This document shows positions 22,050-41,837 of a stretch of 64,000 nucleotides of DNA, piece by piece. Numbering within the stretch: position 1 is the stretch's first letter; the number at the start of each line of letters is the position of its first letter. Both the position numbers and the translations under genes were made by a program. This stretch comes from Bacteroidaceae bacterium (lineage in GTDB: Bacteria; Bacteroidota; Bacteroidia; Bacteroidales; Bacteroidaceae). A model generated the notes under the pieces. The model was not told the DNA's origin. It made no database searches and saw only the letters and a program-made list of their open reading frames with translations. The stretch spans positions 20,571 to 84,570 of the forward strand of contig JAFYOS010000016.1 of assembly GCA_017560125.1 (NCBI GenBank), given 5' to 3'.

Positions 22050-23390
22050 TTATTCCTTCAGTGCGTCGGCGGGGCTGCTCTTTACCGATGCGGCAACGGG
22101 CAGGCTTGCTCCTACAGCGCACACCGCCATTATGAACAGGTAGCTTATGCCGCTTACGATGAGGAAGTGGGGCACGGGCTTGTTGTACCATGCGAGGGTT
22201 TCACCTATGGGCTTAAAGCCGTTGCCATGGAAGCCTATAGGCTCGGCAAAGCCGCTTATGTATATATAGTGTATGAGTAGGGGCATTGCAAACGCAAAGG
22301 CTATGGTGGCAAGTATTGTCGCCTCGGTTACGAACTGCCCTACGATGGTGGCACGGGTGGCGCCCACGCTCTGCATGATGCCTATCTCCTGGCGGCGGGC
22401 AACGGCTCGTACCCAAAATGTGCCGATGATTCCCAACAGCGCGCATAGCAGTGCAAACGACGAGAGGATGATGTTTTTGCGATATTTATTTGTTATTCCT
22501 TGCATCTTCTCATATTGTTTTATCTTCTCGGCGTGCGAAGTGATGGTGTGGCAATAGATATTTCCTCCTCTCAGTGTGGGCATAATCTCGTTGCGGAATT
22601 TTTTTTCAAATTCGTCCTTGTCAGTCCCTTTCTTCACCTTAATATGCAGGTCGTAGTTCGCAAGAATTATTTGGGGTAAACGGGGCGATAATCTGTCGGG
22701 GAAAACAGCCGATGCATCGGGGTCGTGATATGTATGAACCTGAACATCCTTAAATATTCCTTTTACGGTATATTTTATTTTATGATTCGAATAATTATTC
22801 TCTTGTTCTATTTCCTTGCCTATTGCGTTGTCTGTTCCGAATAGCTCTTTGGCAAGGCTTTCCGAAATATAGATGCAGTCCCAGCCTCTCTCTATTTCTA
22901 TGATTTTATTTGTGCGTGCATCTGCGATGCCGTATGTGGCAAAGAAATTACTGTTTTCGGTTTCGTAGCAACTGAAATATTTTATAGTGGTTTCTGTTTT
23001 TTTGTTGTCGGCGCGCATGGTGCTGTCGATGATATAATTGTTGTATGAAGCAGTATTGCCACCCGGGAAACCGTGCAACAGGGCGTAGCTCTCCACTTCG
23101 GGCAGCGACTCAATCTGTTGCAGCATTTGTATGAATTTTTCTCCCGCTTCTTGGTTGCTGTACCCCTCGAAGCGTGTGTCGTGCTTGCGGCTTTTTTCTT
23201 TGTATCTTTCAAGGTCTATTATATATACGTCCTCGGCGTCGTAGCCTTTGTCTATGTTGTTGCGGCTAGTGATGTTGAACAGCGGGTCGATGGCGAGCCA
23301 TATGCATATGCTCACTACGAACAGTTCAAGGAATATCCATGCGTTTTCTTTGCGCTCGTTCCATATCTGGTGCAGGATTTTTGTTATCAT
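22050..23390 (-). CDS. Type B FtsX-like permease of pair 6 (tolC unit)
   Basis: The 446-residue product begins MITKILHQIWNERKENAWIFLELF, the hallmark of the type B permeases here, with one N-terminal helix, a periplasmic domain (about 45-310) and three C-terminal helices. The coupling helix ARRQEIGIMQSVGATRAT precedes the second C-terminal helix, and the chain ends in PADALKE. The closest relative in the window by layout is the pair 1 type B protein (IIGTFWVRAVARRQEIGIMQS against IFGTFWLRASARRREIGIMQS). It follows its type A partner after 12 bases and is followed by the regulator gene after 54, so the two-component genes may be reached by read-through. Confidence 0.88.
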   Translation of the reverse strand: MITKILHQIWNERKENAWIFLELFVVSICIWLAIDPLFNITSRNNIDKGYDAEDVYIIDLERYKEKSRKHDTRFEGYSNQEAGEKFIQMLQQIESLPEVESYALLHGFPGGNTASYNNYIIDSTMRADNKKTETTIKYFSCYETENSNFFATYGIADARTNKIIEIERGWDCIYISESLAKELFGTDNAIGKEIEQENNYSNHKIKYTVKGIFKDVQVHTYHDPDASAVFPDRLSPRLPQIILANYDLHIKVKKGTDKDEFEKKFRNEIMPTLRGGNIYCHTITSHAEKIKQYEKMQGITNKYRKNIILSSFALLCALLGIIGTFWVRAVARRQEIGIMQSVGATRATIVGQFVTEATILATIAFAFAMPLLIHYIYISGFAEPIGFHGNGFKPIGETLAWYNKPVPHFLIVSGISYLFIMAVCAVGASLPVAASVKSSPADALKE

Positions 23391-23402
23391 GGGTGGGTAT
23401 GT

Positions 23403-24722
23403 TTATCTTTTATGATACAGTGATTCTATAATGTTTCTCTTCAGCGCAAGCAGGGTAGGCACAAGCGCCGAAGCGATGTTTAGTAGCAATGCGAGTAGCA
23501 ACACCGATGCAATAACTGTGGGGTTGAAAAGCATTTCCAGTGTTATTCCCCTGGCTATGGTGTCGTTGCTTATTTCTTCGTCTAAAAGGGTTACTATCCA
23601 ATCACAATTTTTATATACGATTATGTAGGTAAGTATAAACCCGATGATTGCTCCTATGGCAGTGAAGAGCATGTTTTCGTACAGCACCTGCGTTATTATC
23701 TGCCTGTTTGTAGCACCGTAGGCCTTGCGTACACCTATTTCGGCCAGGCGGCTGTTCATGCGCGTGGATATCAGGCCGCAAAGGTTCAGCGCGGGGATTA
23801 ACAGGAAGGCAAGCAGCAGATAGATATACTCCAGTATGGCTGTGAACAGGTTGCTGTCGTGTTTCACATCCATTGCCTTTTGCCAGTACTCGTAGATATT
23901 TATTTCTATTTTATTTTTGGTCGCGCCATTCTGTTGTAATATTCTTTTATATATCTCTTCAACCTCTTTTTTTATGGAGTCGCTTTGTTCGGCTGTCTCG
24001 GCAAGGGCGTACATGCATGTATGCCCACCGCTTATTATTTCGTTGGCATCTATATTGTAGAATTTATCTTCGTCGAAGTATCGCGCGTGATGTATGGATA
24101 CGAATATATTGCCGGCCGATGGGGTATTTGTAAGGCATGTGCGCTGGTCTTCTACCACTCCCACTATGCTGTAACTGTCTGTATCAATGTATATGTGTCG
24201 TCCTACAACCTTTGTGGTTGCAAACAGCTTCTTGGCAAGCGAGGCGGTGATGACTGCTACGGGGCTATGTTCCTCCTCTTTGGTGAAAGGGCGTCCCTGC
24301 ACGAAGCGGAAATTGAATAACTGCCAATAACCGCAATCGACGTAGGCCGGCAGTTCGAATATTGTGGTGGTGCTGTTGTCGGACGATATTTCGCATATAT
24401 GCTCAAGGGTGCTGTATAGCCCCTCTTCGCGTACTCCGACCTTTTTCAATAGCTTCGATTCCTGCTTCAACTGTTCTATGCATTTCAGCTTAGGGTAATC
24501 TATTCTGCCGCTTCCGTTTTCATTGCGTTCAATGATTTCTGAAAATATGAGCAATCGGTTGCGCTGCTCTTCGGGGTAGAGCGGCCCCAGTTTTATGTAT
24601 AGTATGACGAAAATGGTCATGGCCATTGCTATGCTTGCGGCTGTTCCTGCGATGTATATGCCAGTGAACAGTCGCTGCTGCTTCATCATTGTCCATGCTT
24701 GGCGAAAAAATTGTCTTATCAT
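23403..24722 (-). CDS. Type A FtsX-like permease of pair 6 (tolC unit)
   Basis: A 439-residue type A permease starting MIRQFFRQAWTMMKQQRLFTGIYIAGTAASIAM, with an N-terminal helix, a periplasmic domain (about 45-285) and three C-terminal helices. The coupling segment NSRLAEIGVRKAYGATNRQI carries the GVR(K/R)AYGA motif that marks all six type A proteins. It lies 44 bases after the tolC gene, the only pair not in the long permease unit, so its supply is tied to the channel rather than to the adaptor. Confidence 0.88.
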   Translation of the reverse strand: MIRQFFRQAWTMMKQQRLFTGIYIAGTAASIAMAMTIFVILYIKLGPLYPEEQRNRLLIFSEIIERNENGSGRIDYPKLKCIEQLKQESKLLKKVGVREEGLYSTLEHICEISSDNSTTTIFELPAYVDCGYWQLFNFRFVQGRPFTKEEEHSPVAVITASLAKKLFATTKVVGRHIYIDTDSYSIVGVVEDQRTCLTNTPSAGNIFVSIHHARYFDEDKFYNIDANEIISGGHTCMYALAETAEQSDSIKKEVEEIYKRILQQNGATKNKIEINIYEYWQKAMDVKHDSNLFTAILEYIYLLLAFLLIPALNLCGLISTRMNSRLAEIGVRKAYGATNRQIITQVLYENMLFTAIGAIIGFILTYIIVYKNCDWIVTLLDEEISNDTIARGITLEMLFNPTVIASVLLLALLLNIASALVPTLLALKRNIIESLYHKR

Positions 24723-24766
24723 GGTTGGTTGTGGGTGTCTTGCCCTTTATATAATTGTTACAAATA

Positions 24767-26257
24767 TCACGAATTATTTTTACTTCGTTTAATTATTTTC
24801 TCGAAATCTGCATCGATGTTTGTGTTGCGCTCCCAGTCCCATAGGGTGATGCTGCGTATCTTGTAATAGTAGTACCAATAGTACATAAGCTCGGAAATGT
24901 GGTTGCGGCGTGCCTGGTCCTTGCTCACCTGGGCATCGTTCAGGTCGAGGGTGCTTATCTTGCCTATGATGAAGGTCTCGACGTTTGTCATGTAGCGTCG
25001 GCGGGCGATGGTGTCGGCCTCTTGTGCTATTTCGAGCTGCGTGCGCTGGTTGTTGAACTGCTCGACAAGGATGAACAAGTTCTGTTTGAAGTTGAGCATC
25101 TCCTGTTCAATGCGGCTGGCGGTTATCTCGCGGTAGCTCTCGGCCATGCGCAGTCGGCCGCGGCGTTTGCCCCAGTCGATAAGTGGTATTTGAAGCCCAA
25201 CTTGCACATATTGGTTGTCGTTCAGACGGTCGTAGGCTGGTTCAATGTCGCGATCGACGCCGCTCAATCCCACCTGTGCGGTCAGGTTTATCTGTCGCAG
25301 GTTGCCCTTGGCGCTGGCTACGTCGTAGTCGGCTTGCAGGCGACGGCGTTCAAGGTTTTTTGTGATGGAATTGTTTTCCAATGCCTTCTGAAGGACGTCG
25401 TCGTATATCAGTGCGATGGGCGAGAGCGTGTCGGGCTGCATGGGCTCTATCTCGCTATTCTCGTCGAGTGCAAGGAAGGAGCGCAGGGTGAACATGGCGC
25501 TCTTCATGTTGCTTTCATTCTCGGTGAGGGTGCTGCGGGCGTTCAGTGTGTTCAGGCGCAGCTGCAACAGGTCGTTGTCGCTTATCTTGCCCATGTCGTG
25601 CTTGGTGCGTGCCACCTCGTAGAGCTTTTCGGCGTTGTTGAGGTTTTGTCGGGCGATGCTCACATTCTCTTTGGCCAGCAGCAGGTTGAAAAAATAGTTG
25701 ATGGCGCTCATGGTCACCTGTTCGGTGGCAGTCAGGAAGTTGGCCTTGGCCTCGGCATAGCGTATGGGCTCTATGCGGCGGTTCCACTTGGTGCTGTTCA
25801 CTCCGAAGATGGGTTGGTTCAGGGTGAGGGCTATGGGGGTGCTCATGTAGCGCTGTTGCTTGTCGCCGCTAAGGGTTTTCAGGTAGTCGAGCGAGGAATT
25901 CAGCGACAGGGTTCCGCCTGTAGCCCATATATTCTGTTGCACCGACAGCTTGCCATACATCTGCATGTAGTTGTTGCGCACGAAGGTGTATGTACCATCG
26001 CTGTTCTGATAGCTGTTGTAGCTCTTGCTGTAGCTGGGCGCTGTTGCCTGGAAATTTATTTCGGGCAGAAGGCCGGCGCGATAGATGCGATACTGCCAAT
26101 AGGCCGAGCGCAATTCGTCTAGGGCTACGGCGGCGTCGAGGCTCTGTGTGCGTGCCAGCAGTATGGTTTCTTCGAGGGTCAGGTGCATGACGTTGCTGTT
26201 TGCACCAATGGCGATGGTGGCAAGCAGTGTCATTACAAGGGTGGTCAGTCGTTTCAT
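24767..26257 (-). CDS. TolC-like outer-membrane channel of ABC locus 2
   Basis: The 496-residue protein has a signal peptide (MKRLTTLVMTLLATIAIGANS) and the OEP-family layout: a first helix-rich repeat, a beta-rich stretch of aromatic and Asn residues (about 70-115, NYMQMYGKLSVQQNIWATGGTLSL), coiled-coil helices with TKHDMGKISDNDLLQLRL, and a second repeat with FIIGKISTLDLNDAQVSKDQARR. It is the only outer-membrane channel in locus 2. A sigma-54 promoter begins about 24 bases upstream of its start codon. It leads a unit of tolC, permease pair 6 and, probably, the regulator and kinase genes. Confidence 0.9.
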   Translation of the reverse strand: MKRLTTLVMTLLATIAIGANSNVMHLTLEETILLARTQSLDAAVALDELRSAYWQYRIYRAGLLPEINFQATAPSYSKSYNSYQNSDGTYTFVRNNYMQMYGKLSVQQNIWATGGTLSLNSSLDYLKTLSGDKQQRYMSTPIALTLNQPIFGVNSTKWNRRIEPIRYAEAKANFLTATEQVTMSAINYFFNLLLAKENVSIARQNLNNAEKLYEVARTKHDMGKISDNDLLQLRLNTLNARSTLTENESNMKSAMFTLRSFLALDENSEIEPMQPDTLSPIALIYDDVLQKALENNSITKNLERRRLQADYDVASAKGNLRQINLTAQVGLSGVDRDIEPAYDRLNDNQYVQVGLQIPLIDWGKRRGRLRMAESYREITASRIEQEMLNFKQNLFILVEQFNNQRTQLEIAQEADTIARRRYMTNVETFIIGKISTLDLNDAQVSKDQARRNHISELMYYWYYYYKIRSITLWDWERNTNIDADFEKIIKRSKNNS

Positions 26258-26280
26258 ATTATATTTTTTTATTTGTATAG

Positions 26281-26299
26281 TATCAAAATGCGTGCCAAA
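26281..26299 (-). promoter_or_regulatory. Sigma-54 (-24/-12) promoter of the tolC-permease unit
   Basis: On the minus strand the sequence reads TTTGGCACG, four bases, then TTGATA, so GG is followed by ten bases and then G of the -12 element. It matches the classical TTGGCACG-N4-TTGC pattern except for A in place of C at -12. The expected start site leaves a leader of roughly 15 bases before tolC. A near-identical copy precedes the adaptor gene of the same locus. Confidence 0.85.
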
Positions 26300-26342
26300 G
26301 TATTATTCCCTTGTTTATTAGTGTGTTAGCTGTTTTTGTGGG

Positions 26343-26377
26343 TGTCCGTTTTCGGACAGTATGTTCGCTTTTGTACG
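26343..26377. promoter_or_regulatory. Tandem activator sites upstream of the tolC sigma-54 promoter
   Basis: A perfect dyad TGTCCG-TTTT-CGGACA (26343-26358) is followed 19 bases away, centre to centre, by a degenerate copy TGTTCG-CTTT-TGTACG (26362-26377). The dyad begins 44 bases upstream of the -24 element. The same two sites, order and distances occur at the other sigma-54 promoter, pointing to the linked NtrC-type protein. Confidence 0.8.
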
Positions 26378-26426
26378 GTGCTGGGGTATTTATTGCTATT
26401 ATTGTTTTTTCATGTATCGCATAAAA

Positions 26427-26841
26427 TTATTCCTCTCTTAGTGCATCGGCGGGTTGTATTCGTGTAGCGCGATAGACGGGAATCCATGTGCCAATGATGG
26501 TAATCAGCAGCATTGCCACGTAGGTGATAGCCGTCACCCATGCAAAATGGATGTAGAAATTGTTCACTCCATACTCGGGGTTGGGCGTGAAACACTCCTT
26601 GTCGAAATAGCATACACCGGGCTGGGCGAAACCTTCGGTTACCACGAAATGCAGCACAATGGGCATTGCCGTAGCAAATGCCAATGTGAGCAGAATGAGT
26701 GCTTCGGTGATGTACTGCTTCACCACACGGCTGCGCGATGCGCCCATGCTGCACATGATGCCTATGTCGCTGCGGCGGTTATCCATTCGTGTCCAGAATG
26801 TGCCAAGCATGCACAGGAATATGCAGGCGAGGGCGAAACTG
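26427..26841. repeat. Direct repeat R1, copy 1 (3-prime end of pair 5 type B gene)
   Basis: About 415 bases that align without gaps to 29059-29473, with roughly nine in ten bases the same by eye. It codes for the C-terminal membrane part. Differences are mostly third-position changes, so the amino-acid sequence is even better kept. Confidence 0.85.
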
Positions 26842-27707
26842 CAGAAAATGAATTTCGGGCGCAGAGTGCTTGCTGCTATCTTGCTCGTTGAACTGTTTTT
26901 CAGATACTCGTCTATGCTAAGCAGCTTAATCTCCTCTATGAATTTGCCGCACTCATCCTCGTTCAACATGTTATTGAGCTTTTGCGCGAAGAGCCTCCTG
27001 TCTGTGCCCTTTTGCAGTTTCACAATTATTTTGTTGGAGAGGCTCGAATAGAACCAGTCTTCTTCTATATTTATAAGATATATTATCGATGGTAGCGGTT
27101 CCACATAATCGTTTATTTTGTAATCCTCGTACACGCCTATAATCTCGCGTTCCTCCATGGGTTTTTTGCCAATGACCTCTGTGGTGCCGTAGGTGTTTAT
27201 TGCTGCCGATTTTGATACCAGTATTTGTGTCGCAGGGTTTATATTTTCGGGAAGCGTGAGCAGTTTGCCGCTGTTTGCATCCTTCAGCCCCAGGGTGTGA
27301 AGGGCATTTCTATCCCAATTCCATAGATAATGAAATGCGAGTACTACATGCATCCCTTCCTGTTTATCGGGATCGGCGTACAGGGCGTCGCTTACAGATG
27401 TGGCATTGCCGTTGAAATTGGTTGTCAGCATGGTGGTAATATGATTTTCAACCTCGGGCATCTTCTCTATCTTGTGTAGTATGTTCCTGAACACATCGAG
27501 ATTATTTTCTGCGCTAACGTCGCACCTTAATTCGATAAAATATCTATCCTCCTTTTCGTAGTTGTCGGGGATGGCCTTTGTGGCATAGATAACATACAGC
27601 GGGTCGATGAGCATCCACAGAAAGACGGCTATAACAAGAAGCTCGGCAAATATCCAACTGTTTTGCCAGCGCTGGTTCCATATTTGGTGCAATATATTCT
27701 TTATCAT
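26427..27707 (-). CDS. Type B FtsX-like permease of pair 5
   Basis: The 426-residue type B protein starts MIKNILHQIWNQRWQNSWIFAELLVIA and ends in RIQPADALREE. From about residue 290 to the end it is nearly identical to the pair 4 type B protein, including the coupling helix NRRSDIGIMCSMGASRSRVV and the external loop FTPNPEYGVNNFYIHFAW, while the periplasmic domain (about 45-275) is quite different. It is the last gene of the long permease unit, begins 2 bases after its type A partner, and its stop is followed by the regulatory region of the tolC unit. Confidence 0.88.
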   Translation of the reverse strand: MIKNILHQIWNQRWQNSWIFAELLVIAVFLWMLIDPLYVIYATKAIPDNYEKEDRYFIELRCDVSAENNLDVFRNILHKIEKMPEVENHITTMLTTNFNGNATSVSDALYADPDKQEGMHVVLAFHYLWNWDRNALHTLGLKDANSGKLLTLPENINPATQILVSKSAAINTYGTTEVIGKKPMEEREIIGVYEDYKINDYVEPLPSIIYLINIEEDWFYSSLSNKIIVKLQKGTDRRLFAQKLNNMLNEDECGKFIEEIKLLSIDEYLKNSSTSKIAASTLRPKFIFCSFALACIFLCMLGTFWTRMDNRRSDIGIMCSMGASRSRVVKQYITEALILLTLAFATAMPIVLHFVVTEGFAQPGVCYFDKECFTPNPEYGVNNFYIHFAWVTAITYVAMLLITIIGTWIPVYRATRIQPADALREE

Positions 27708-27709
27708 AC

Positions 27710-29029
27710 CTATTTCCTTTTACTGAGTGAATATACAATGCTGTGGCGCAGCGATGCCACAAGCGGAATGAATGCCGACGCTATGTTTATTGCCATGCAC
27801 AGCAGCAGTGTGGCTATGAATAGCGGCACGTTGAATAGCGACGAGGTGGGCAGTTGCGGAGTGCCCATTTTTTGCGTATTATACATGCTTAGCGAAATTT
27901 GTTCTTCCGTGTCGTAAAGGTAGATTATCCACTCTTCTGTGCAGTAAACAATGGCAATGCTCAGTAGCAATCCCAACGTGCCACCTATGAGCGTGAGCAG
28001 CATATTTTCGCATAGTATATGCCCGGCGATGCTTTTGTTTGTTGCGCCGTAGGCCTTGCGCACGCCGAACTCCACCATGCGGTTCTCCATGCGCGAGAAT
28101 ATCATGTTGCCAAGGTTCAGTGCCGGAATCAGCAGGAAGGCGCTAATCATGATTATTATTTCGGTGAGGAATTTTCGGAGCGCATCGCTGTTGTATATCT
28201 GCTCTATGGTGGTGTTTATATTATCTATTTTGTATGCGCGTTTTTCGTTGTCGGCATTGATGCGTGTGACAAGGTTTTCAATCTCTTTTTTCAGTGCATC
28301 GCGCTCGCCGACGCTCTTTGCCGTAGCATAAATCCTGCAATTTCCCAACAGGGTATTTTCCATCTGCTTTTTATCTAGGTAGAGCTCCTCTTTGGGGCGC
28401 ATGCTTATGGGTATATACATAGATGCAGATGTCTCGGGTGTGATGCTCGTAACATCCTCGACCACTCCTACGATGGTAAGGTTTTTGCCGTTGACTATTA
28501 TCTGTTCTCCGGCGACCTTGGTGGTCGAGAATAGTTCGGTTGCGAGGCTGCGCGAAACGACAACCATCGGCGTCATTTTCTTCTCCTCGTCATCGTTGAA
28601 TGAGCGGCCATCGATGAAATAAAAATCGAACACTCGCCAGAATGGTGCATCGACATATGCTGCGGGTCGTTTCAAGCGCTTCTTGTTGTCGCTTGTCGTT
28701 ACGGGAGTGCTGAAGTCGTAGTAGCTCCCGCTTTTGCAGCATACTTCGTCTAGGTGCTTGCAGTTTTCTTTAATTAGTGTGCTAAACGCGGGCGAAAAGT
28801 GTCTTTGTGCCCATTGCTCGCTCTCCTTTTCCTTGCTGGCCAAGTTGGGGAGTATCAGCATCCTGTCGCGGTTTTCTTCGGGATAGATAGGCGCGAATTT
28901 TATGTAGAGAACAGCGAAGGTAATCATTATCATTGTTACCGACAGGGCTGTTCCGGCAATGTATATGCCGGTGAACAGCTTGTGCTGTTTCATCATCGTC
29001 CATGCTTGTCGTAGGGCTTGTTTTATCAT
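27710..29029 (-). CDS. Type A FtsX-like permease of pair 5
   Basis: The 439-residue type A protein begins MIKQALRQAWTMMKQHKLFT; its first 54 residues are identical to those of the pair 4 type A protein. The periplasmic domain (about 50-280) has diverged, with no obvious alignment to pair 4 beyond the YVD/FIDG segment shared by the whole group. The coupling motif is ENRMVEFGVRKAYGATNKS and the tail RHSIVYSLSKRK differs from the YHKR ending of pairs 2, 3 and 6. It lies 29 bases after the pair 4 type B gene. Confidence 0.88.
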   Translation of the reverse strand: MIKQALRQAWTMMKQHKLFTGIYIAGTALSVTMIMITFAVLYIKFAPIYPEENRDRMLILPNLASKEKESEQWAQRHFSPAFSTLIKENCKHLDEVCCKSGSYYDFSTPVTTSDNKKRLKRPAAYVDAPFWRVFDFYFIDGRSFNDDEEKKMTPMVVVSRSLATELFSTTKVAGEQIIVNGKNLTIVGVVEDVTSITPETSASMYIPISMRPKEELYLDKKQMENTLLGNCRIYATAKSVGERDALKKEIENLVTRINADNEKRAYKIDNINTTIEQIYNSDALRKFLTEIIIMISAFLLIPALNLGNMIFSRMENRMVEFGVRKAYGATNKSIAGHILCENMLLTLIGGTLGLLLSIAIVYCTEEWIIYLYDTEEQISLSMYNTQKMGTPQLPTSSLFNVPLFIATLLLCMAINIASAFIPLVASLRHSIVYSLSKRK

Positions 29030-29032
29030 GGT
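28865..29032. repeat. Direct repeat R2, copy 1 (5-prime end of pair 5 type A gene)
   Basis: 168 bases that match 31537-31704 with only three differences, covering the start codon, the N-terminal cytoplasmic segment and the first transmembrane helix. Such near-identity next to a fully diverged middle implies a recent duplication or gene conversion. Confidence 0.9.
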
Positions 29033-29058
29033 GGGGTGTGTTATTTTTTATAATATGT

Positions 29059-29473
29059 TTATTCCTCTTTCAGTGCATCGGCTGGTTGTATTCGTGTAGC
29101 GCGATAGACCGGAATCCATGTGCCAATGATTGTAATCAGCAGCATTGCCACGTAGGTGATAGCCGTCACCCATGCAAAATGGATATAGAAATTGTTCATT
29201 CCATACTCGGGGTTGGGCGTGAAGTTCTCCTTATCGAAATCGCACACTCCCGGCTGGGCGAAGCCTTCGGTTACCACGAAGTGCAGTACAATGGGCATTG
29301 CCGTTGTAAAGGCCAGTGTGAGCAGAATGAGTGCTTCGGTAATGTACTGCTTCACCACACGGCTGCGCGAAGCTCCCATGCTGCACATGATGCCTATGTC
29401 GCTGCGGCGGTTGTCCATGCGTGTCCAGAATGTGCCCAGCATGCACAGGAATATGCAGGCGAGGGCAAAGCTG
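29059..29473. repeat. Direct repeat R1, copy 2 (3-prime end of pair 4 type B gene)
   Basis: Gap-free counterpart of 26427-26841, at a constant offset of 2632 bases. The match stops abruptly just before the segment encoding the periplasmic domain. Confidence 0.85.
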
Positions 29474-30363
29474 TTTAGTATAATCTTTTGGTTGATTGTG
29501 TAGCGTGCCTCTTTCTCTATGTGTGTATCTTCTTGTAGCTCGTCGAGTGTGAGTACCTTTACCTGGAAATTGTTCTCTTTATCTATTTCGCTTACAACGC
29601 CTTCTACTTTTCGTGTGAAGTGGTCGATGTCCGTTCCCTCGGCCAGTTTCACAATCCTCTTGGAACTGTTGCTCGAAATAGAGTAGAGGCTGTTTTCCTT
29701 AAACTGTATCATCGACGGCAACGGCTCAGTGTATGTGTCCAGTTGGAAATCGTCATAGACCCCGCGGATAGTATATTTTGTGTGCGGGTCGTTGTGCATT
29801 TTGCCAATGACCTCTGTGGTTCCGAACAGTCTTATTGCCGCAAGGCGCGAAATGAAAATGTCATTGGCTGTGTTTATCTCTTTGGGTACGGTCAGCGTCT
29901 TTCCGCTGTTTGCATCCTTCAGCCCCAGTGTGGCGAACATATTTTGGTCGCCCTCCCAAATGTAGCTGTATAGCCACACGTTTATCAATGAGTCTTTCTT
30001 CTGCTCGTCGTAATATAGCTTGTCGGTGCAATGCATGGTGCTGTTGAATGCTCCAAGGTTCATGTAGGTGTCCATGCTGCTCTCCACCTCGGGCAGGCTC
30101 TTTATTGCGTGTATTATGTTGCAGTATTGGTTGTAGAGCGAGAGGTTGTTTTCTTCCTTCAGCATTTCGAAGTAATCGAAATCCAACCTTACACAATACC
30201 TGTCGCGCTTCTCATAGTTGTCGGGGATGGCCTTTGTGGCAAAAATCACATATATGGGGTCGCTTATCATCCATATGAAAATGGTGGTCAGCAACAGCAC
30301 ACCGAATATCAGGCTGTTGTAGCGACGTTCGTTCCATGCTTGGTGCAATATCTTTGTAATCAT
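29059..30363 (-). CDS. Type B FtsX-like permease of pair 4
   Basis: This 434-residue protein starts MITKILHQAWNERRYNSLIFGVLLLTTIFIWM. The periplasmic domain (about 45-280) begins YVIFATKAIPDNYEKRDRYCVRLDF, a segment also kept in pair 5, then diverges. The C-terminal membrane part and ending RIQPADALKEE match pair 5 almost exactly. It follows its type A partner by 6 bases. The shared N- and C-termini with a changed middle are most extreme in this and the pair 5 protein. Confidence 0.88.
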   Translation of the reverse strand: MITKILHQAWNERRYNSLIFGVLLLTTIFIWMISDPIYVIFATKAIPDNYEKRDRYCVRLDFDYFEMLKEENNLSLYNQYCNIIHAIKSLPEVESSMDTYMNLGAFNSTMHCTDKLYYDEQKKDSLINVWLYSYIWEGDQNMFATLGLKDANSGKTLTVPKEINTANDIFISRLAAIRLFGTTEVIGKMHNDPHTKYTIRGVYDDFQLDTYTEPLPSMIQFKENSLYSISSNSSKRIVKLAEGTDIDHFTRKVEGVVSEIDKENNFQVKVLTLDELQEDTHIEKEARYTINQKIILNSFALACIFLCMLGTFWTRMDNRRSDIGIMCSMGASRSRVVKQYITEALILLTLAFTTAMPIVLHFVVTEGFAQPGVCDFDKENFTPNPEYGMNNFYIHFAWVTAITYVAMLLITIIGTWIPVYRATRIQPADALKEE

Positions 30364-30369
30364 GGTTAT

Positions 30370-31701
30370 CTATTTTCTTCTGTTGAGTGAATATACTATG
30401 CTGTGGCGCATTTTTGCCGCTACCGGCAACAGTGCCGATACAATGTTTATGAGCATGCACGCAACGAGTGTTGCTGCAAACAGTGTGGGATTGAATATCA
30501 TCGAGAAATCTATAATCTGTTCACCCCAGTTGTCTATATCCCATATGTAGTTGCTCAATATATCTCCCGAATCGAACAGGTATAGCACCCATTTGCTTGC
30601 ACCGAAAAGCACTGTGGCGCTTATGGCGAAGCCCAATATGCCGCCGACGAGTGTGAGTAGCATGTTTTCTATCAGCACTTGCGACACAATGTCCCAACGG
30701 CTTGCTCCGTAGGCGCGGCGTACGCCCATTTCCACCATGCGGTTATCCATGCGCGATAGTATCATTATGCTTAGGCACAGGGCGGGTATCAGTAGGAAGG
30801 CGGCTATTATCAGCACAATCTCTTTTATGAAATTGCGGAACGCATCGTTGCCGAAATCTGTGCGGTTGTATATGGCCTCGACGTGTGTGAATATGTCGTC
30901 GGCTATATCGTATGTGTATGGTGTGCTGCTCGCATTGTAGCGTGCAATCTTCTCGGTAATCTCCTTTTTCAGCAGCTCTTTTTCTGCTGCTTTTTTTACC
31001 GTTGCATGTATGTCGTACATTCCCGCAAGCTCCATTCTTGTGTTGTCGAACCATAGCTTGTTGCTGTTCAGTCCTAAAGGCATATATATTGCATAGGTGT
31101 TGGTTATGGCGCTTGGCGCGTCCTTTATCACTCCTATAATGGTAAGCTCCTCGCCATCGACATATATATGCTTGCCGGCAACCTTGTGGGTTGCGAACAG
31201 CTTCATGGCTGTGCTCTGTGCTATTACTGCCACACGATTGTTGCTTCGGACGTCGTGCTCGCCGAAGGGGTGCCCGTCGATGAACCTGTATGTATATATT
31301 TTCCAGAACTGCTCGTCGGTATATACGGCATATTCCTTTATTCTCTTTGTGCTTTTATCTGCCGATGCCGACAGCTTTTTAGCCTTGTTCGAACGTACGT
31401 TGCACGAGAGGTTGTCGAGGTATTTGCTATCTTCTTTTATCAGTTCGGCCAGTTTCGTCGAGCAGTTATATGCTTGTTTCGTTTCCCCCTCTGTATCGCT
31501 ATATATGGTAGTGATTCTTTTTATCAGCAGTGTTTTGTCGCGGTTTTCTTCGGGATAGATGGGTGCGAATTTTATGTAGAGCACAGCGAAGGTAATCATT
31601 ATCATTGTTACCGACAGGGCTGTTCCGGCAATGTATATGCCGGTGAACAGCTTGTGCTGTTTCATCATCGTCCATGCTTGTCGTAGGGCTTGTTTTATCA
31701 T
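30370..31701 (-). CDS. Type A FtsX-like permease of pair 4
   Basis: The 443-residue type A protein has the same first 54 residues as pair 5, then a distinct periplasmic domain (about 55-290) rich in Lys and Thr (ITTIYSDTEGETKQAYNCSTK). The C-terminal block has DNRMVEMGVRRAYGASRWDIV as coupling helix and ends RHSIVYSLNRRK, as in pair 5. It begins 29 bases after the pair 3 type B gene. The mixture of identical ends and unrelated-looking middle suggests selection for a changed periplasmic surface. Confidence 0.88.
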   Translation of the reverse strand: MIKQALRQAWTMMKQHKLFTGIYIAGTALSVTMIMITFAVLYIKFAPIYPEENRDKTLLIKRITTIYSDTEGETKQAYNCSTKLAELIKEDSKYLDNLSCNVRSNKAKKLSASADKSTKRIKEYAVYTDEQFWKIYTYRFIDGHPFGEHDVRSNNRVAVIAQSTAMKLFATHKVAGKHIYVDGEELTIIGVIKDAPSAITNTYAIYMPLGLNSNKLWFDNTRMELAGMYDIHATVKKAAEKELLKKEITEKIARYNASSTPYTYDIADDIFTHVEAIYNRTDFGNDAFRNFIKEIVLIIAAFLLIPALCLSIMILSRMDNRMVEMGVRRAYGASRWDIVSQVLIENMLLTLVGGILGFAISATVLFGASKWVLYLFDSGDILSNYIWDIDNWGEQIIDFSMIFNPTLFAATLVACMLINIVSALLPVAAKMRHSIVYSLNRRK

Positions 31702-33062: not shown

Positions 33063-33067
33063 GGGGC

Positions 33068-34369
33068 TTATCTTTTGTGGTACAACGATTGTATGATGTC
33101 TTTTCTAAGGGCCAATAACGTGGGCACAAGCGCCGAGGCTATGTTCAGCAGTGCGCTCATCAGCAGTGCGCACAGGAATATTGTGGGGTTGAGGAGCATT
33201 TCGGCGCTCAGCTGGTTGCCGGCTTCGGCTGTGTATCCAATTCCAATGTGGCTCTCTATGAGCGTGGTCATGCGGTAGCTGAATGTATATACCACCACAT
33301 AGGAGAGCAGTAACCCTGCAACTGCTCCCAACAGGGTGAGTAACATGTTTTCGCATAGTACCTGCGCTAAAATCTGTCGTCCCGTGGCACCGTAGGCACG
33401 GCGCACGCCTATTTCCACCATGCGCCCTTTCATGCGCGACGATATCATTCCTCCCAGGTTCAGCGCGGGAATGAAAAGCACGGCGAGTATGATGTAGAAG
33501 TATGTTTTCAGAGCGTCCCACACGCTTTCGTCCTTCTCGAGGAAGAAGGCCGCTTGCCAGTAGTTCGTTATATCCATCTCGTAGTCGAATATCTCTTCGC
33601 TGGGCTGATAGTAACGGTTGAATATGCTTTCAATCTCGTTGAGCAGTGCCTCTCTTTTGCCATCGTGTGCCCGGGCATATAGCTTAAAGAACTTTTTGGA
33701 GTTCTTTCCATCGGTGTGAACTGGATAGCTATTTATGCTGGCAAACGGGTTATATATAGTGAGCCATATTTTTCCGTAGCTGTAGGGCGTACATCGTGTG
33801 GCATCCTGCACAACGCCTATTATGCGATAGTATCTGCCGTTCAGCTTTATCTCCTTGCCGGCGACCTTGGTCGATGCAAAAAGCTGCATGGCAAGCGACT
33901 CGCTTATCACTGCCACATCTTCGTGCATCTCCTTTTCGGTAAATCCCTTTCCATCGACGAAATTGTAGTCGAACACCTGCCACCATCCGTCGTTCACGAA
34001 TATTACTTTTTCATCGACCTCGACGTTGTTGCCGTCAACGGTTATCGGAAGCTTTTGCAGCGAACTGTAAATGTCATATACAGCTATGGCCTTCATTTGC
34101 TTTGCCTCGCGTTGCAGCGTTTCTATGAAATCGAGATTGAAATAGTTTGTTTCGAATTTTTTCTTTGGCGTTTTGTGGATTTCGCGAATCGATACGAGTA
34201 TATCGTCGCGATGGTACTCGGGGTAGATGTTTCCTACGTTTATGTAGATGACGATGAACAGTATCATTATTATTGATATGCTCACTGATGTTCCGGCAAT
34301 GTATATGCCGGTGAACAGCTTGTGCTGTTTCATCATCGTCCATGCTTGGTTCAGGGTTTGTTTTATCAT
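33068..34369 (-). CDS. Type A FtsX-like permease of pair 3
   Basis: The 433-residue type A protein begins MIKQTLNQAWTMMKQHKLFT and keeps the group pattern: one helix, a periplasmic domain (about 50-280) with WWQVFDYNFVDGKGFTEKE and a MacB-like ASTKVAGKEI segment, then three helices with the coupling motif KGRMVEIGVRRAYGATGRQI and the ending DIIQSLYHKR. It is the first gene after the ATPase, 89 bases downstream, and a strong hairpin lies in that gap. Confidence 0.88.
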   Translation of the reverse strand: MIKQTLNQAWTMMKQHKLFTGIYIAGTSVSISIIMILFIVIYINVGNIYPEYHRDDILVSIREIHKTPKKKFETNYFNLDFIETLQREAKQMKAIAVYDIYSSLQKLPITVDGNNVEVDEKVIFVNDGWWQVFDYNFVDGKGFTEKEMHEDVAVISESLAMQLFASTKVAGKEIKLNGRYYRIIGVVQDATRCTPYSYGKIWLTIYNPFASINSYPVHTDGKNSKKFFKLYARAHDGKREALLNEIESIFNRYYQPSEEIFDYEMDITNYWQAAFFLEKDESVWDALKTYFYIILAVLFIPALNLGGMISSRMKGRMVEIGVRRAYGATGRQILAQVLCENMLLTLLGAVAGLLLSYVVVYTFSYRMTTLIESHIGIGYTAEAGNQLSAEMLLNPTIFLCALLMSALLNIASALVPTLLALRKDIIQSLYHKR

Positions 34370-34446: not shown

Positions 34447-34458
34447 TTTGTTGTGTGC

Positions 34459-35124
34459 CTATTCAATCTGGCGACCGTCGAAGAAGCGTATGGTGCGCGA
34501 GGTCTGCTTTGCCTGCTCCTCGTTGTGGGTTACCATCACAATGGTGCGGCCATCTTCGCGGTTCAGCTTGTGAAGGATCTCCATCACCTCGGCACCCATC
34601 TTCGAATCGAGGTTACCGGTGGGCTCATCGGCGAGGATAATCTCGGGGTTGCCTATGATGGCGCGGGCTATGGCTACACGCTGGCACTGACCGCCCGACA
34701 GCTGTGTGGGCATGTGGTACATGCGGTGTGTGAGCCCCACACGTTCGAGCATCTCCTTGGCAAGGCGTGTGCGCTCCTTGGCGCTTATCTTGCGATAGAG
34801 CAGGGGCAGTTCCACGTTGTCAATCACGTTGAGCGAGTTTATCAGGTGGAAGCTCTGGAAGACGAAGCCCAGGGTGTTGTTACGGAAGGCTGCAAGCTCC
34901 TTCTCGGTCATCTGATCGACGGTGGTGCCGGCAATCTCTATGGTGCCGCTTGTAGGCTTGTCGAGCAATCCCATGATGTTGAGCAGGGTGGATTTGCCAC
35001 ATCCCGAGGGTCCCATGATGCTAAGGAATTCTCCTTTGTGTACTTCGATGTTTACATTTTCGAGCGCCTGTGTCTCTACTGAATCGGTGCGGTAAATCTT
35101 GTTTACTCCAGTTAATTTAATCAT
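34459..35124 (-). CDS. Single ABC ATPase of locus 2 (MacB/LolD type)
   Basis: A 221-residue ATPase with Walker A GPSGCGKST (38-46), Q-loop FQSFHL, signature LSGGQCQR (142-149), Walker B IILADEPTGNLD and H-loop VTHN. It is the only ATP-binding subunit among twelve permease genes in locus 2, and sits in the middle of the long unit between pairs 2 and 3. The straightforward reading is that all permease pairs share it. It resembles the locus 1 ATPase in all motifs but differs in sequence around the Q-loop helices, which contact the permease. Confidence 0.96.
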   Translation of the reverse strand: MIKLTGVNKIYRTDSVETQALENVNIEVHKGEFLSIMGPSGCGKSTLLNIMGLLDKPTSGTIEIAGTTVDQMTEKELAAFRNNTLGFVFQSFHLINSLNVIDNVELPLLYRKISAKERTRLAKEMLERVGLTHRMYHMPTQLSGGQCQRVAIARAIIGNPEIILADEPTGNLDSKMGAEVMEILHKLNREDGRTIVMVTHNEEQAKQTSRTIRFFDGRQIE

Positions 35125-35171
35125 AATTGTATGGTTTTAATTGTTAATATATAATTCGTTTTTTACGGTTT

Positions 35172-36446
35172 CTATTCTCTTAGCGCGTCGGCCGGCAGCG
35201 AGCGTGTGATGCGTATCGATGGCAGCAGTGCGCCGGCAATGGCTATTGCACTTATCAGCAGATAGGCAACGGCTGTGACTATGGCAAAGTGGGGCAGTGC
35301 GCGGTTGTGCAGATAGCTTTGGTCGGGGGTCTCGTTGTGTATCCACGAGGGTACCTTGGCTAGTGGCTCGGCGAAGCCCTCGACATATATGTAGTGCGCG
35401 ATGAACGGCATCGATACAATGAAGGCAACTGTAACGAGTATCATCGCTTCGGCGACAAACTGCCCTATGACGCGCCCTTTGGTTGCTCCCATACTGCGCA
35501 TGATGCCTATGTCGCGACGGCGGCTGTTGGTGCGTATCCAGAATGCGCTTAACACGCCCAAGAAGGCACAGAAGAGCGCGAAGCCCGACAGCCCGGCATA
35601 GAGGCGGTACTTGTTGGTGATGTTGTATTGCTTGTCGTGTTTCTCTATGCGCTCCATGTACGATTCCAATCCGGTGATGTGATAGACGCCGTGGCTGTAC
35701 TTGGGCATAATTTCCTCTTCAAATTTCTTTTTGAACGCATCTTCGTCGGTGCTGTCCTTTAGCCTGAAATAGATTTCTTCGCCGAATGTAAAGTTATCGA
35801 CGTTGTTGCAGAAAAGTACGATTGGGGTGTATTCGTCGTAGTTGAGTAGCTGTAAATCTTCGAACACTCCTAAAATGGTGAACTCCTCACGGTGTACATT
35901 CATAATCTTCTTACCAACTACGTCGGTGGTGCCGAAAAGCGACATTGCTTGGCGTCGCGACAGATAAGCACCGTCGCTTCCTGCATAGTCGGCCTGTTGC
36001 AGCACCTTGCCTGTCTTTACATCAATCGCTCTTATTGTCTCGAAGAGACGGCTCTTGTCGTTGGTTTTAATATTGTAAAAGCGTGCTGCTTTCCAATCGA
36101 CGAGGCTGTCGGGCCTGTCGTCGGGAATAGCCAGCATGGTCGATGAATATCCGCCGGGGTTGGGTTGTAATTCGCATTGGGCTATGAAACTACATTCTAT
36201 TTCGGGAATATTGTCAAACGCATCGGCTAACTGATTTAGAAATTCTTTTTCGGTATTGTAAGCGTCGTACTTCACTTTATATACTTTTTCGGGGGTGTAG
36301 CCTTTGGGTAGGTTGCCGCGACACACAAGAGTGAACAGTGGGTCGATGGCGAGCCACAGGAACAGGCTGGCGACTATCAGTTCAAGGAAGAGCCACGCGT
36401 TTTGCTTGCGCTCGTTCCATATTTGGTGTATGATTTTTGTTATCAT
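35172..36446 (-). CDS. Type B FtsX-like permease of pair 2
   Basis: A 424-residue type B protein, starting MITKIIHQIWNERKQNAWLFLELIVASLFLWLAIDPLF. The periplasmic domain (about 45-290) opens CRGNLPKGYTPEKVYKVKYD. The coupling helix NSRRRDIGIMRSMGATKGRV and external loop AEPLAKVPSWIHNETPDQSY follow, then the last helix and the end SLPADALRE. It lies 64 bases after its type A partner and 47 before the ATPase gene, larger gaps than in pairs 3-5. Confidence 0.88.
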   Translation of the reverse strand: MITKIIHQIWNERKQNAWLFLELIVASLFLWLAIDPLFTLVCRGNLPKGYTPEKVYKVKYDAYNTEKEFLNQLADAFDNIPEIECSFIAQCELQPNPGGYSSTMLAIPDDRPDSLVDWKAARFYNIKTNDKSRLFETIRAIDVKTGKVLQQADYAGSDGAYLSRRQAMSLFGTTDVVGKKIMNVHREEFTILGVFEDLQLLNYDEYTPIVLFCNNVDNFTFGEEIYFRLKDSTDEDAFKKKFEEEIMPKYSHGVYHITGLESYMERIEKHDKQYNITNKYRLYAGLSGFALFCAFLGVLSAFWIRTNSRRRDIGIMRSMGATKGRVIGQFVAEAMILVTVAFIVSMPFIAHYIYVEGFAEPLAKVPSWIHNETPDQSYLHNRALPHFAIVTAVAYLLISAIAIAGALLPSIRITRSLPADALRE

Positions 36447-36510
36447 GGTGCGTGGTGTTTTGTTTTTCTTTTTCTTTTTCGTATGTTATTAGCATTAAGT
36501 AACGCGGTGG

Positions 36511-37767: not shown

Positions 37768-37795
37768 GGTCGTTTGGTTTTTATTGTGGTTGTTC

Positions 37796-39121: not shown

Positions 39122-39199
39122 GGGTGGTGTTATTGTTTCTATTTCGAATCGAATGTTATTTTACTAAGTATAGTCCTAAGTAACCTTAATCATATTCTT

Positions 39200-40498
39200 T
39201 TACCTTCTATGATACAGCGCCTCGATGATGTTTCCTCGCAACGCCAGCACTGTGGGGATAAGTGCCGAGGCGATGTTCAGCACCATGGTGATGAGTAGCA
39301 CTATGGCTACAACCGTGGGGTTCAGCAGCATTTCCATCGTCAGTCCCGTTGTGGGGCCTGTGTGAATGCCTTTATCGAGTAGCGTGATTATCCAATCGTA
39401 TCCGCCGGCTACAAGCAGGTAGGAGAGCAGCAAGCCTATTGCCGCGCCTACGAAGGTGAGCAGTAGGTTTTCGTACAGCACTTGCGAAATTATATGTCGG
39501 GTGGTGGCTCCATAGGCGCGACGCACGCCTACTTCGTCCAGACGGTTGTTCATGCGGGTGGATATCATTCCGCACAGGTTCAGGGCGGGGATGAACAGGA
39601 AGGCGAGTATCGCATACAGGTATTTTGCTATGCCGTTGTATAGGCTGCCCTCTTGTCCGAATGTATTGTATAGCTGGAAGGCATTTTCCCAATGCTTAAT
39701 AAGCGACAGATGGAATTCAGAATCGCCGTAGCCCGAAAATTGCTGTATATATTTGTTGAAGATATCCTTGATTTCGTTTTTTAGTGCATCGACCTCGTGT
39801 GCCGATTTTGCAAGCATGAATATTTGTTTGTTGCCTATGATGTCTTTGTCTTCGTTCATCAATTTGTCGCGGTAGTAGGCTGGTGCCCAGATGTCGCTGC
39901 TTGTGTGGCCGCTTTCTTGGCCGGTGGCTGCCGGTTCCACTACGCCCACTATCTTGTGCTGTGTGTTGTCTATGCTCACATGTTCGCCACATATGTCGTG
40001 ACGGGCAAATAGCTTGTCGGCGAGCGTGGTGGTTACCACTGCAACGGGTTCGTACTCCTCCTGCGCGGTGAATCCGTGGCCGTGGATGAAACGGAAATCG
40101 AATAGGTTCCAGTATTCGCTATCGACATATGCGGCCTCTTCTATTGTTTCTGTTTCGTTCTTTATATTTGTGATTATCTGCTCACTGGGAATGCCGGTCA
40201 ATCGGATGCACATCTTATCTATGTGCTTGGCCTCTTTCTTGATGGCATCGACAAGCCGTTGTGTGGTAGCTCCGAACTCGCTGTAGTCGTCGCTTTTGTG
40301 GTATTCTTGTATCCACACGAAGCTCAGCATCCTGTCGCGGTTGTACTCGGGGTAGAGAGGGCCCAGTTTTATATAGAGGGTGATGATGACGGCCATTGCC
40401 ATGGCTATGCTTATGGCGGTGCCGGCGATATACATGACGGTGAACAGTCGCTGCTGCTTCATCATCGTCCATGCCTGTCGGAAAAATTGTCTTATCAT
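39200..40498 (-). CDS. Type A FtsX-like permease of pair 1
   Basis: The first of six type A permeases in transcription order, 432 residues. Type A proteins share an amphipathic start (MIRQFFRQAWTMMKQQRLFT), one helix, a MacB-like periplasmic domain (here about 45-280, with YWNLFDFRFIHGHGF), and three C-terminal helices with the coupling motif EVGVRRAYGAT between the first two. This four-helix layout, with the ATPase as a separate chain, matches half of a MacB or LolC/LolE-type transporter; two such chains are needed for a working permease, which fits the strict A-then-B gene pairing. It lies 91 bases after the adaptor gene, with a hairpin between. Confidence 0.88.
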   Translation of the reverse strand: MIRQFFRQAWTMMKQQRLFTVMYIAGTAISIAMAMAVIITLYIKLGPLYPEYNRDRMLSFVWIQEYHKSDDYSEFGATTQRLVDAIKKEAKHIDKMCIRLTGIPSEQIITNIKNETETIEEAAYVDSEYWNLFDFRFIHGHGFTAQEEYEPVAVVTTTLADKLFARHDICGEHVSIDNTQHKIVGVVEPAATGQESGHTSSDIWAPAYYRDKLMNEDKDIIGNKQIFMLAKSAHEVDALKNEIKDIFNKYIQQFSGYGDSEFHLSLIKHWENAFQLYNTFGQEGSLYNGIAKYLYAILAFLFIPALNLCGMISTRMNNRLDEVGVRRAYGATTRHIISQVLYENLLLTFVGAAIGLLLSYLLVAGGYDWIITLLDKGIHTGPTTGLTMEMLLNPTVVAIVLLITMVLNIASALIPTVLALRGNIIEALYHRR

Positions 40499-40544
40499 GG
40501 TTGTTTGCTATTACGGGTTCTTGCTGTAGTGCTCTCCTTGCGGT

Positions 40545-40572
40545 GGCAATGGCGCGTTTTTACGCCATTGCC
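40545..40572 (-). other. Hairpin between the adaptor gene and pair 1
   Basis: GGCAATGGCG and CGCCATTGCC pair perfectly around an eight-base loop, 17 bases after the adaptor stop codon. As with the hairpin after the ATPase gene, no T-tract follows on the minus strand. Confidence 0.6.
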
Positions 40573-40589
40573 GGTGTCGAATACATAAC

Positions 40590-41837
40590 TTATTTTAATT
40601 TTATTTTCTCTTTGTGGGCGAATGTGGATACATCGGATATTACCACTTGGTCGCCCTCTTGCAGCCCCTCGACAACCTCTACATGGTCGAAGTTAGAGTC
40701 GCCCAGCTTCACCTTGCGGCGTATCAGCTCGTTCTGCTCGTTGCGCACGAATAGGTTGTATGTGCCTGCTCCCACATAGTACGAGGCGTTGCGTATGCGT
40801 AGCACATCGTCGTGTATGGAATTCATTATATATACATCGGTGCGCACACCGGGTCGCAGGCGTTTGTGGTTGTCGTTGATGAGGCGCACTTCGAACTGTA
40901 TGCTGCCGTTAAGGCTCTTGGGGGCTACGTTGCCTATGCGTCCTTCGAGCTTTTCGGTGCCTATCTTCACTAGGCATTTTTTGCCGGGTGATACATATTC
41001 GCTCATGGCGTCGGATATTTGTGCTTTTATGATGTAGTGGCCAAGGTCGGATATGATGGCTATCTGGCTGCCGCTACCCACTTGGGCACCTATCTGCTCG
41101 TTGATGTAGGTGAGGACGGCCTTGCGGGGCGAAAGGATGCGGGCGTCGTCGAAGGTGCGCTTCATCTCCTCGAGCTTTTTTGTGAAGATGGCGAATTCGA
41201 GCTCCTGCACGCGCACGTTCGATGCTTTTATCTCGCGGTCGTTCTTCAGCTGTTCGCGCTGCTGCTCAAGACGCAGGCGGGCGGTCTGTACGGCCATTTC
41301 GGCCTGTCGCACCTTGTCGGCTGTTCCCGAACCGATGCTGTCGAGGTAGCGCTCGTTGTTGAGCTCGGCTTCTAAGCGGTTCAGCTCCATTGCGTTTATC
41401 TTTATGTTCATTTCGAGGCTCGACAGGGCGGTCTTGTTGTTCAGTTTCAGTTGCTCGAGCTGGTGGCGGCGTATCTCTTTTTCGTCGAGCAGTTTCTTGT
41501 ACTCGTTCTCGGTGCTGGTGAGGTCGAGGCGCAGCAGGGGAGTGCCCACATCGACGCTGTCGCCGCTGTGGCAATAGACCTCTACTATGCGCGAACTGAT
41601 GGGCGAATTTATTATCTCCTCGAAGGCTGGATGCACTTCGCCCGAGGCTGTCACGCTGGTCTCTATGGTGCCGTGGTCGATGGTGCTGAAGGTGAGCGAT
41701 TTTGCGTTCACCGTGCTGCGGGCGTAGTTGATGCCTGCCGCGACGATGGCTGCGAGCAGTGCGAATGCGCCTACTATTTTGCCTATGCGGATAAGCATCT
41801 TTTTCTGCTTTTCTTTTTTGGGTATTTCTCTGTCCAT
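40590..41837 (-). CDS. MacA/HlyD-like periplasmic adaptor of ABC locus 2
   Basis: The 415-residue adaptor has an N-terminal anchor helix (about 16-36), lipoyl half-domains (INSPISSRIVEVYCHSGDSVDVGTPLLRLD and ILSPRKAVLTYINEQIG) on either side of a long coiled-coil hairpin (about 105-225), then beta-barrel and membrane-proximal domains ending GLQEGDQVVISDVSTFAHKEK. It is the first gene of the sigma-54-driven permease unit and the only adaptor for the six pairs, so pairs would have to share it or compete for it. Its partner channel is the TolC-like protein of the second unit. Confidence 0.92.
   Translation of the reverse strand: MDREIPKKEKQKKMLIRIGKIVGAFALLAAIVAAGINYARSTVNAKSLTFSTIDHGTIETSVTASGEVHPAFEEIINSPISSRIVEVYCHSGDSVDVGTPLLRLDLTSTENEYKKLLDEKEIRRHQLEQLKLNNKTALSSLEMNIKINAMELNRLEAELNNERYLDSIGSGTADKVRQAEMAVQTARLRLEQQREQLKNDREIKASNVRVQELEFAIFTKKLEEMKRTFDDARILSPRKAVLTYINEQIGAQVGSGSQIAIISDLGHYIIKAQISDAMSEYVSPGKKCLVKIGTEKLEGRIGNVAPKSLNGSIQFEVRLINDNHKRLRPGVRTDVYIMNSIHDDVLRIRNASYYVGAGTYNLFVRNEQNELIRRKVKLGDSNFDHVEVVEGLQEGDQVVISDVSTFAHKEKIKLK

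Follow-up and report, generated by a model that had tools for sequence, protein, structure and literature searches.

Transporters built on FtsX/MacB-type permeases are known in several forms. MacAB-TolC uses a single kind of permease, LolCDE uses two unlike permease chains, and the ADOP proteins form large permease families without a nearby ATPase gene. In the excerpted text of PMC5985334, the permease part of this superfamily consists of two identical chains, of two unlike chains or of one fused chain, and no set of alternative pairs is given. Here we analysed a stretch of 64,000 nucleotides, hereafter the window, from a Bacteroidaceae bacterium (GCA_017560125.1, contig JAFYOS010000016.1, positions 20,571 to 84,570), in which six pairs of such permease genes, called A and B, lie in one unit with a single ATPase gene, a single adaptor gene and a single gene for a TolC-like channel. 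The original prediction, made from the sequence of the window, had proposed that six alternative permease pairs share one motor and one exit. Comparison with related genomes leads us to favour a reading of this kind, in which the unit is rather probably a sigma-54-controlled tripartite exporter resembling MacAB-TolC, with only the inner-membrane gate multiplied into six alternative heterodimers on a shared motor and exit.

The unit runs on the minus strand from 41837 to 19303 in the order adaptor, A1, B1, A2, B2, ATPase, A3, B3, A4, B4, A5, B5, TolC, A6, B6, NtrC-type regulator, histidine kinase. The six pairs are on one strand, with A always preceding B, as had been predicted, but they are not consecutive, since two pairs are followed by the ATPase, three by TolC, and one stands after TolC. 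The end of the unit also had to be moved from 22050, because the unit continues to 19303 through the regulator and the kinase, which had been overlooked. The features, in window coordinates, are the following.

41882..41896, minus strand: sigma-54-like -24/-12 promoter, TGGCACGGTTTTTGA, with 9/10 consensus positions, its start 59 nucleotides upstream of the adaptor ATG
40590..41837, minus strand: periplasmic adaptor, MacA/HlyD-like (Pfam HlyD_3, HlyD_D23)
39200..40498, minus strand: permease A1, FtsX and MacB_PCD, one plus three helices
37796..39121, minus strand: permease B1, FtsX, with MacB_PCD below the cut-off, one plus three helices
36511..37767, minus strand: permease A2, FtsX and MacB_PCD
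35172..36446, minus strand: permease B2, FtsX and MacB_PCD
34459..35124, minus strand: ATP-binding cassette (ABC) ATPase of the MacB/LolD type (Pfam ABC_tran), with Walker A, LSGGQ and Walker B legible in the sequence
33068..34369, minus strand: permease A3, FtsX and MacB_PCD
31731..33062, minus strand: permease B3, FtsX and MacB_PCD, the latter barely above the cut-off
30370..31701, minus strand: permease A4, FtsX and MacB_PCD
29059..30363, minus strand: permease B4, FtsX alone
27710..29029, minus strand: permease A5, FtsX and MacB_PCD
26427..27707, minus strand: permease B5, FtsX alone
26283..26297, minus strand: second sigma-54-like site, TGGCACGCATTTTGA, with 9/10 consensus positions, its start 40 nucleotides upstream of the TolC ATG
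24767..26257, minus strand: TolC-like outer-membrane channel (Pfam OEP, two stretches)
23403..24722, minus strand: permease A6, FtsX and MacB_PCD
22050..23390, minus strand: permease B6, FtsX alone
20637..21995, minus strand: NtrC-type response regulator with receiver, sigma-54 AAA+ and Fis helix-turn-helix domains (Pfam), also found with the arrays in relatives
19303..20619, minus strand: histidine kinase (Pfam HATPase_c), two N-terminal helices with an 8-residue loop, a topology of the intramembrane-sensing type

All 12 permease genes are intact open reading frames. A hydropathy scan recovered in each product the one N-terminal and three C-terminal helices that had been described, and an alignment placed the class-specific coupling-helix motifs in all 12, so that the objection that an intact coupling helix might be lacking fails in the window. 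The FtsX domain scored above the Pfam cut-off in all 12 chains; MacB_PCD did so in all six A chains and in two of the six B chains, with one more B chain matching below the cut-off. The ATPase, adaptor and TolC genes lay where the original prediction had placed them, one of each, and passed their main Pfam cut-offs. Paralogues in the window share 34-49% identity among the A chains and 29-45% among the B chains, apart from B4 and B5 (62%). Profiles built from 60 A and 60 B chains had MacB structures as their top matches (5nik, E 4e-28, for A; 5lil, E 5e-21, for B), followed by 5xu1 (Spr0694-0695 type), YtrF and LolF, and for B also LolE. A narrow coupling-helix pattern applied to all genomes matched 132 of 183 A chains and 78 of 183 B chains, a shortfall that we take to mean that the pattern is too narrow outside the genus rather than that the motif has been lost.

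The profiles were also compared with full-length permeases. In 14 such proteins (785-849 residues) from other Bacteroidia genomes, which were chosen by their match to the A profile, the A profile favoured the N-terminal half in every case; judged by sequence, the A chains are of the N-half type of a duplicated permease. The two full-length permeases of the window gave a C-half preference of the B profile in both, and of the A profile in one (21.0 bits), the other being matched by A in its N half (18.5 bits). For the two of L025, the B profile was divided, favouring the C half in one protein and the N half in the second. The candidate equation of B with the C half of a duplicated permease was dropped, since that half was favoured in 5 of the 14.

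We then asked how widely the pairs are distributed. A-type chains were present in 17 of 44 genomes of the same genus, the window's genome counted, in 90 of 251 genomes of a family sample and in 33 of 395 genomes of a class sample, for which the profile was broader and the threshold stricter. Up to seven candidates per genome were scored in the family sample and up to four in the class sample, so that copy numbers are at least the values obtained; the weakest class-sample matches are full-length permeases, and the weakest family-sample matches may be too. Gene order, which the original prediction had proposed to examine in related genomes, was compared in 74 stretches, of which 72 contain at least one whole pair, and was kept across many genomes, which rules out a chance arrangement. 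In the window's taxonomic order, with two families in the sample, the arrangement was mostly adaptor-(AB)n-ATPase-(AB)m-TolC-(AB)k-regulator-kinase, with divergent regulators, or TolC and adaptor relocated, as variants; the regulator and the kinase recur beside the array. Genomes that share the class with the window but belong to a different taxonomic order have adaptor-TolC-ATPase-A-B-regulator-kinase with a single pair, as seen in all 11 loci fetched, which were drawn from 19 listed genomes of this kind.

In the window's taxonomic order, it is the pair alone that is multiplied. Among the 44 stretches in which adaptor, ATPase, TolC and regulator were all seen, one pair is present in 14, two in 12, three in 9, four in 5 and five in 3, and the window is the one stretch with six. 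Thus, 30 of the 44 have two to six pairs, and 11 of the 14 single-pair stretches come from the other taxonomic order; the remaining 30 stretches stand outside this set since some of their parts are on a different contig, lie beyond the DNA fetched or fall short of the score limit. Four genomes with many pairs are among these 30. In G029, a sister species, the pairs are split between two contigs, five and two. Seven pairs were counted in Bacteroides oleiciplenus and six in B. stercorirosoris, and B. cellulosilyticus has four that are readable whole, with further A genes interrupted by runs of N. The possibility that these A genes are broken was set aside, since runs of N in the record make them unreadable and do not establish breakage. 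In the 38-39 kb read from each of these three species, neither a TolC of this family nor the NtrC-type regulator was seen. A tree built from 183 concatenated pairs set apart the 11 single pairs of the other taxonomic order as one group, with a support of 1.00. The tree is unrooted; if its root lies on the single-pair branch, the arrays would have expanded from one ancestral pair.

The two genes of a pair remain together. An A gene is directly followed by a B gene in 148 of 154 cases at 61 loci, and four of the six A genes without an adjacent B lie at or near the end of a stretch or contig. Distance matrices of A and B were strongly correlated (Mantel r 0.904, 150 pairs); when the B chains were re-dealt within each genome, the mean r was 0.394 and the maximum 0.501, and none of 2000 shuffles reached 0.904. 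This correlation indicates that the pairs travel as units. Moreover, G029 carries a separate orthologous pair for every one of the six in the window, with 67-86% identity. By a simple counting method applied to this one species pair, the ratio of non-synonymous to synonymous change (dN/dS) was 0.08-0.20 in all 12 permeases, compared with 0.04 for the ATPase, 0.09 for the adaptor, 0.11 for TolC, 0.11 for the regulator and 0.14 for the kinase. These values show purifying selection on every one of the six pairs, and the objection that most permeases might be inactive remnants fails for the window and G029. Non-synonymous change was faster in the periplasmic part than in the membrane and coupling parts in all 12 comparisons between these two species. 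Likewise, in stretches with at least two pairs, and with region borders set by fixed residue counts, paralogues of one stretch resembled each other less in the periplasmic part than in the rest of the chain, with its membrane and coupling parts; for A this held in 49 of the 50 stretches, and for B in all 50.

Signs of local exchange were found between neighbouring pairs. The first 144 nucleotides (48 codons) of A4 and A5 are 97.9% identical to each other and 83-85% identical to their own orthologues, and the periplasmic parts of A4 and A5 share 37% identity; in B4 and B5, the last 300 nucleotides are 92% identical. The N-termini of A4 and A5 and the C-termini of B4 and B5, all within 26427-31701 and with diverged sequence in between, reflect local gene conversion on this nucleotide evidence. 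Three other origins or states of the array were considered and rejected. A recent tandem duplication or an assembly repeat disagrees with paralogues of 29-49% identity (B4/B5 62%) whose orthologues in the sister species are closer; a pseudogene array is excluded by the intact frames and the dN/dS values; and no inverted repeats of at least 30 nucleotides (15-nucleotide seed), such as an invertible or shuffling system might use, were found in 19000-42600.

The promoter before the window's adaptor has TTGA instead of TTGC as its -12 element. In the sister species L032, a sigma-54-like site with 10/10 positions lies 49 nucleotides upstream of the adaptor. Of 62 adaptors, 51 had a site with at least 8/10 positions within -200 to +100 of their start, against 5.8 expected, and 32 had one with at least 9/10, against 0.3 expected; the expectation comes from first-order resampling, and the 62 include the window's unrelated plus-strand adaptor, which is a non-match. 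A stricter pattern was matched in 16 of 56 adaptor regions, some of them from duplicate loci, and in 0 of 56 single shuffles. A third 9/10 match, inside the coding sequence of B4, is probably due to chance. We take the window permeases to be members of COG0577, and only if they are does a published survey agree with these sites. In the portion of PMC12316311 available, COG0577 permeases are enriched for sigma-54 control in Bacteroidia, and this is read as defence against antimicrobial peptides. The kinase is also uniform: among those of 45 relatives, the window included, 40 have two helices joined by a loop of 1-12 residues, two have a 17-residue loop, two have one called helix and one has three. 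As a separate observation, a histidine kinase of 867-901 residues stands in or after the arrays of G210, G223, G074, G249, G114, G273, B. oleiciplenus and B. stercorirosoris; these kinases match the operon-kinase profile weakly, and in the three inspected, the N-terminal part resembles a periplasmic binding protein by eye.

Under the reading that we favour, each A-B pair would be one heterodimeric permease, comparable to LolC-LolE, and the coupling helices of any of the six could engage two molecules of the single ATPase. The two periplasmic domains of the heterodimer would dock beneath the common adaptor ring and TolC, and ATP-driven motion of these domains would expel a substrate, taken from the periplasm or the outer leaflet, through TolC. 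Through its diverged periplasmic domains, each heterodimer might have a substrate or ligand to itself, and the better-conserved membrane and coupling parts would keep the six gates compatible with the shared motor. This scheme of mechanotransmission is borrowed from work on MacB (PMC5985334, in excerpt). The kinase, having virtually no periplasmic sensor, may sense the working state of the permeases and would then turn on the operon via the NtrC-type regulator, an idea that follows flux sensing by BceAB-BceS as given in part of PMC10314905. That A and B form heterodimers appears very likely, and a similarly high probability is attached to the sharing of the ATPase by most pairs; separate substrates for each pair are somewhat more probable than not, and kinase sensing linked to the transporter, which rests on analogy, is put forward tentatively. 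The rise from one pair to many, with the rest staying mostly single-copy, is best accounted for by gates that have diversified in substrate around a common motor and a common exit. The proposal of alternative pairs on a shared motor and exit has thus gained strong indirect support, which comes from single-pair operons with the same other genes, from multiplication of the cassette only, from A/B co-variation and from purifying selection. Gene content, intact frames, pairing, co-variation, purifying selection and promoter motifs are what the analysis shows; heterodimers, the common motor and exit for every pair, separate substrates and flux sensing are inferred, and peptides or lipopeptides are no more than putative substrates. 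A bolder version is also conceivable, although we hold it with less than even confidence. In it, the ATPase, adaptor and channel would be time-shared by one to seven dedicated heterodimers with their own ligand-binding periplasmic pairs, all reporting to the loop-less kinase, and sigma-54 would switch the whole repertoire, gene conversion keeping the adjacent motor-side ends alike as the ligand side diversifies.

Several observations weigh against the exporter with exchangeable gates. MacB_PCD had no Pfam match in three of the six B chains, and the B profile favoured the C half in just 5 of the 14 full-length permeases from other Bacteroidia, because of which our confidence in heterodimers was slightly lowered. 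Some pairs have also been lost: L053 has an A remnant of 71 residues, and in L040 (from 14831) unrelated DNA stands directly behind an A gene where its B would be expected, owing either to loss of B or to a chimeric contig. The genome encodes two further ATPases 55-58% identical to that of the unit, one of them in the window's neighbouring plus-strand operon; these could also serve the pairs, so that the sharing need not be exclusive. Among the 44 full-set stretches, 41 have one ATPase and three have two, the second lying inside the array in G074 but past the kinase and on the opposite strand in G042 and G026, and G121, outside the 44, has two as well. Finally, we noticed no gene for a substrate; no search for genes of small peptides was made.

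The ATPase findings bear on the alternative that one or two pairs use the unit's ATPase and the rest use related ATPases elsewhere in the genome or serve as ATP-independent decoys or scaffolds. The two related ATPases and the existence of ADOP-type permease families without a nearby ATPase gene are in its favour, but the coupling motifs are intact in all 12 chains, the pairs and the ATPase are in one operon, and a single ATPase is the state in 41 of the 44 stretches; we give this alternative little credence. The gene conversion in the first 48 codons of A4 and A5, together with the different pair numbers of close relatives, would fit duplicate pairs that share one job and add capacity. However, the pairs are old and diverged (29-49%; B4/B5 62%), they have distinct orthologues across species, and their divergence is concentrated in the periplasmic domain, which makes simple dosage or redundancy quite unlikely. 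Somewhat more weight, though still not much, falls to sensing and target protection in the manner of BceAB-BceRS, in which the pairs would bind different envelope-attacking peptides, free them from their target and signal via the kinase, export through TolC being secondary. The presence of a gene for a kinase lacking a sensor loop next to genes for FtsX-type permeases agrees with this, as does the surveyed sigma-54 control of Bacteroidia COG0577 permeases, read as antimicrobial-peptide defence, insofar as the window permeases are presumed to belong there. Nevertheless, the adaptor and TolC are retained, in all 11 single-pair loci included, which argues for transenvelope export, and the pairs consist of four-helix chains and the regulator is of the NtrC type, whereas Bce has a single chain.

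The surroundings of the unit hold further genes. A SecA-like gene, recognised by eye in translation, lies upstream of it. On the plus strand, a neighbouring exporter operon (10882-19221) encodes a TolC, an adaptor and an ATPase together with two duplicated permeases of full length (808 and 819 residues), and a short response regulator (10201-10926) stands on the opposite strand to it. Elsewhere in the same genome (G000:C26:70376-77973), one ATPase gene is followed by three open frames for full-length permeases (774, 788 and 779 residues); one ATPase with several permeases is a recurrent layout in the source genome. In L076 and L070, arrays carry two ATPase genes of the same family as the unit's ATPase. 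The source is a draft assembly of 37 contigs and 2.6 Mb (completeness 98.5, contamination 6.4), and its nearest relatives among named public records are metagenome-assembled genomes of Bacteroidaceae or Bacteroidales, several of them from water buffalo and roe deer gut; on this ground, the taxonomic order of the window is taken as Bacteroidales.

One motor and exit with several exchangeable, evolving gates would be a natural experiment on how gut bacteria keep the choice of substrate apart from energy coupling. The layout is no oddity of a single genome and looks like a genuine evolving modular design; with one to seven pairs in relatives, cultured Bacteroides among them, the idea is accessible to gene deletion. 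The claim that no system of such stoichiometry has been described agrees with the open-access literature surveyed (titles, beginnings of abstracts and passages), in which we found no description of an operon where several permease pairs accompany one ATPase, one adaptor and one TolC, but the layout is not confined to this genome. The kinds of components are already known, and it is the combination of many pairs with a single ATPase, adaptor and TolC that appears undescribed in the part of the literature covered.

The ATPase belongs to the MacB/LolD group and has DarD as its best NCBIfam match (259.1 against a cut-off of 375). The darobactin exporter DarBCDE likewise has an adaptor, an ATPase and a MacB-like permease, but the Dar permease is duplicated, where pairs are found here, and the other scores were also below the cut-off (DarC 62 against 450; DarB, for B1, 19.3 against 700). 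A1 aligned with the N half (3-401) of the ADOP model (TIGR03434), and the C half was matched by B1 and B4; the scores of 127.9, 92.4 and 58.0 for A1, B1 and B4 lay far under the cut-off of 622.3; unlike the duplicated ADOP permeases of about 800 residues, the chains here are separate and half that size, and the ATPase is in the operon. BceAB-BceRS similarly has an almost loop-less kinase (8 residues here, by hydropathy) encoded with an FtsX-type transporter, but this unit differs in its permease topology, its NtrC-type regulator and its adaptor and TolC. LolCDE shares the two unlike permease chains and a separate LolD-like ATPase, whereas here an adaptor and TolC are present; the ATPase scored 249.1 for LolD against 307.75, and A1 and B4 scored 19.6 and 24.2 for LolC/E against 362.45. 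MacAB-TolC also combines a four-helix FtsX/MacB permease with an adaptor and TolC, and MacB is the best structural match of both profiles, yet three window permeases reached 36.0, 26.5 and 19.8 bits with the MacB model, whose cut-off is 966. The ATPase of the unit described here is a chain of its own and its permease chains are of two unlike kinds, and in place of the one homodimer of MacB there are six pairs.

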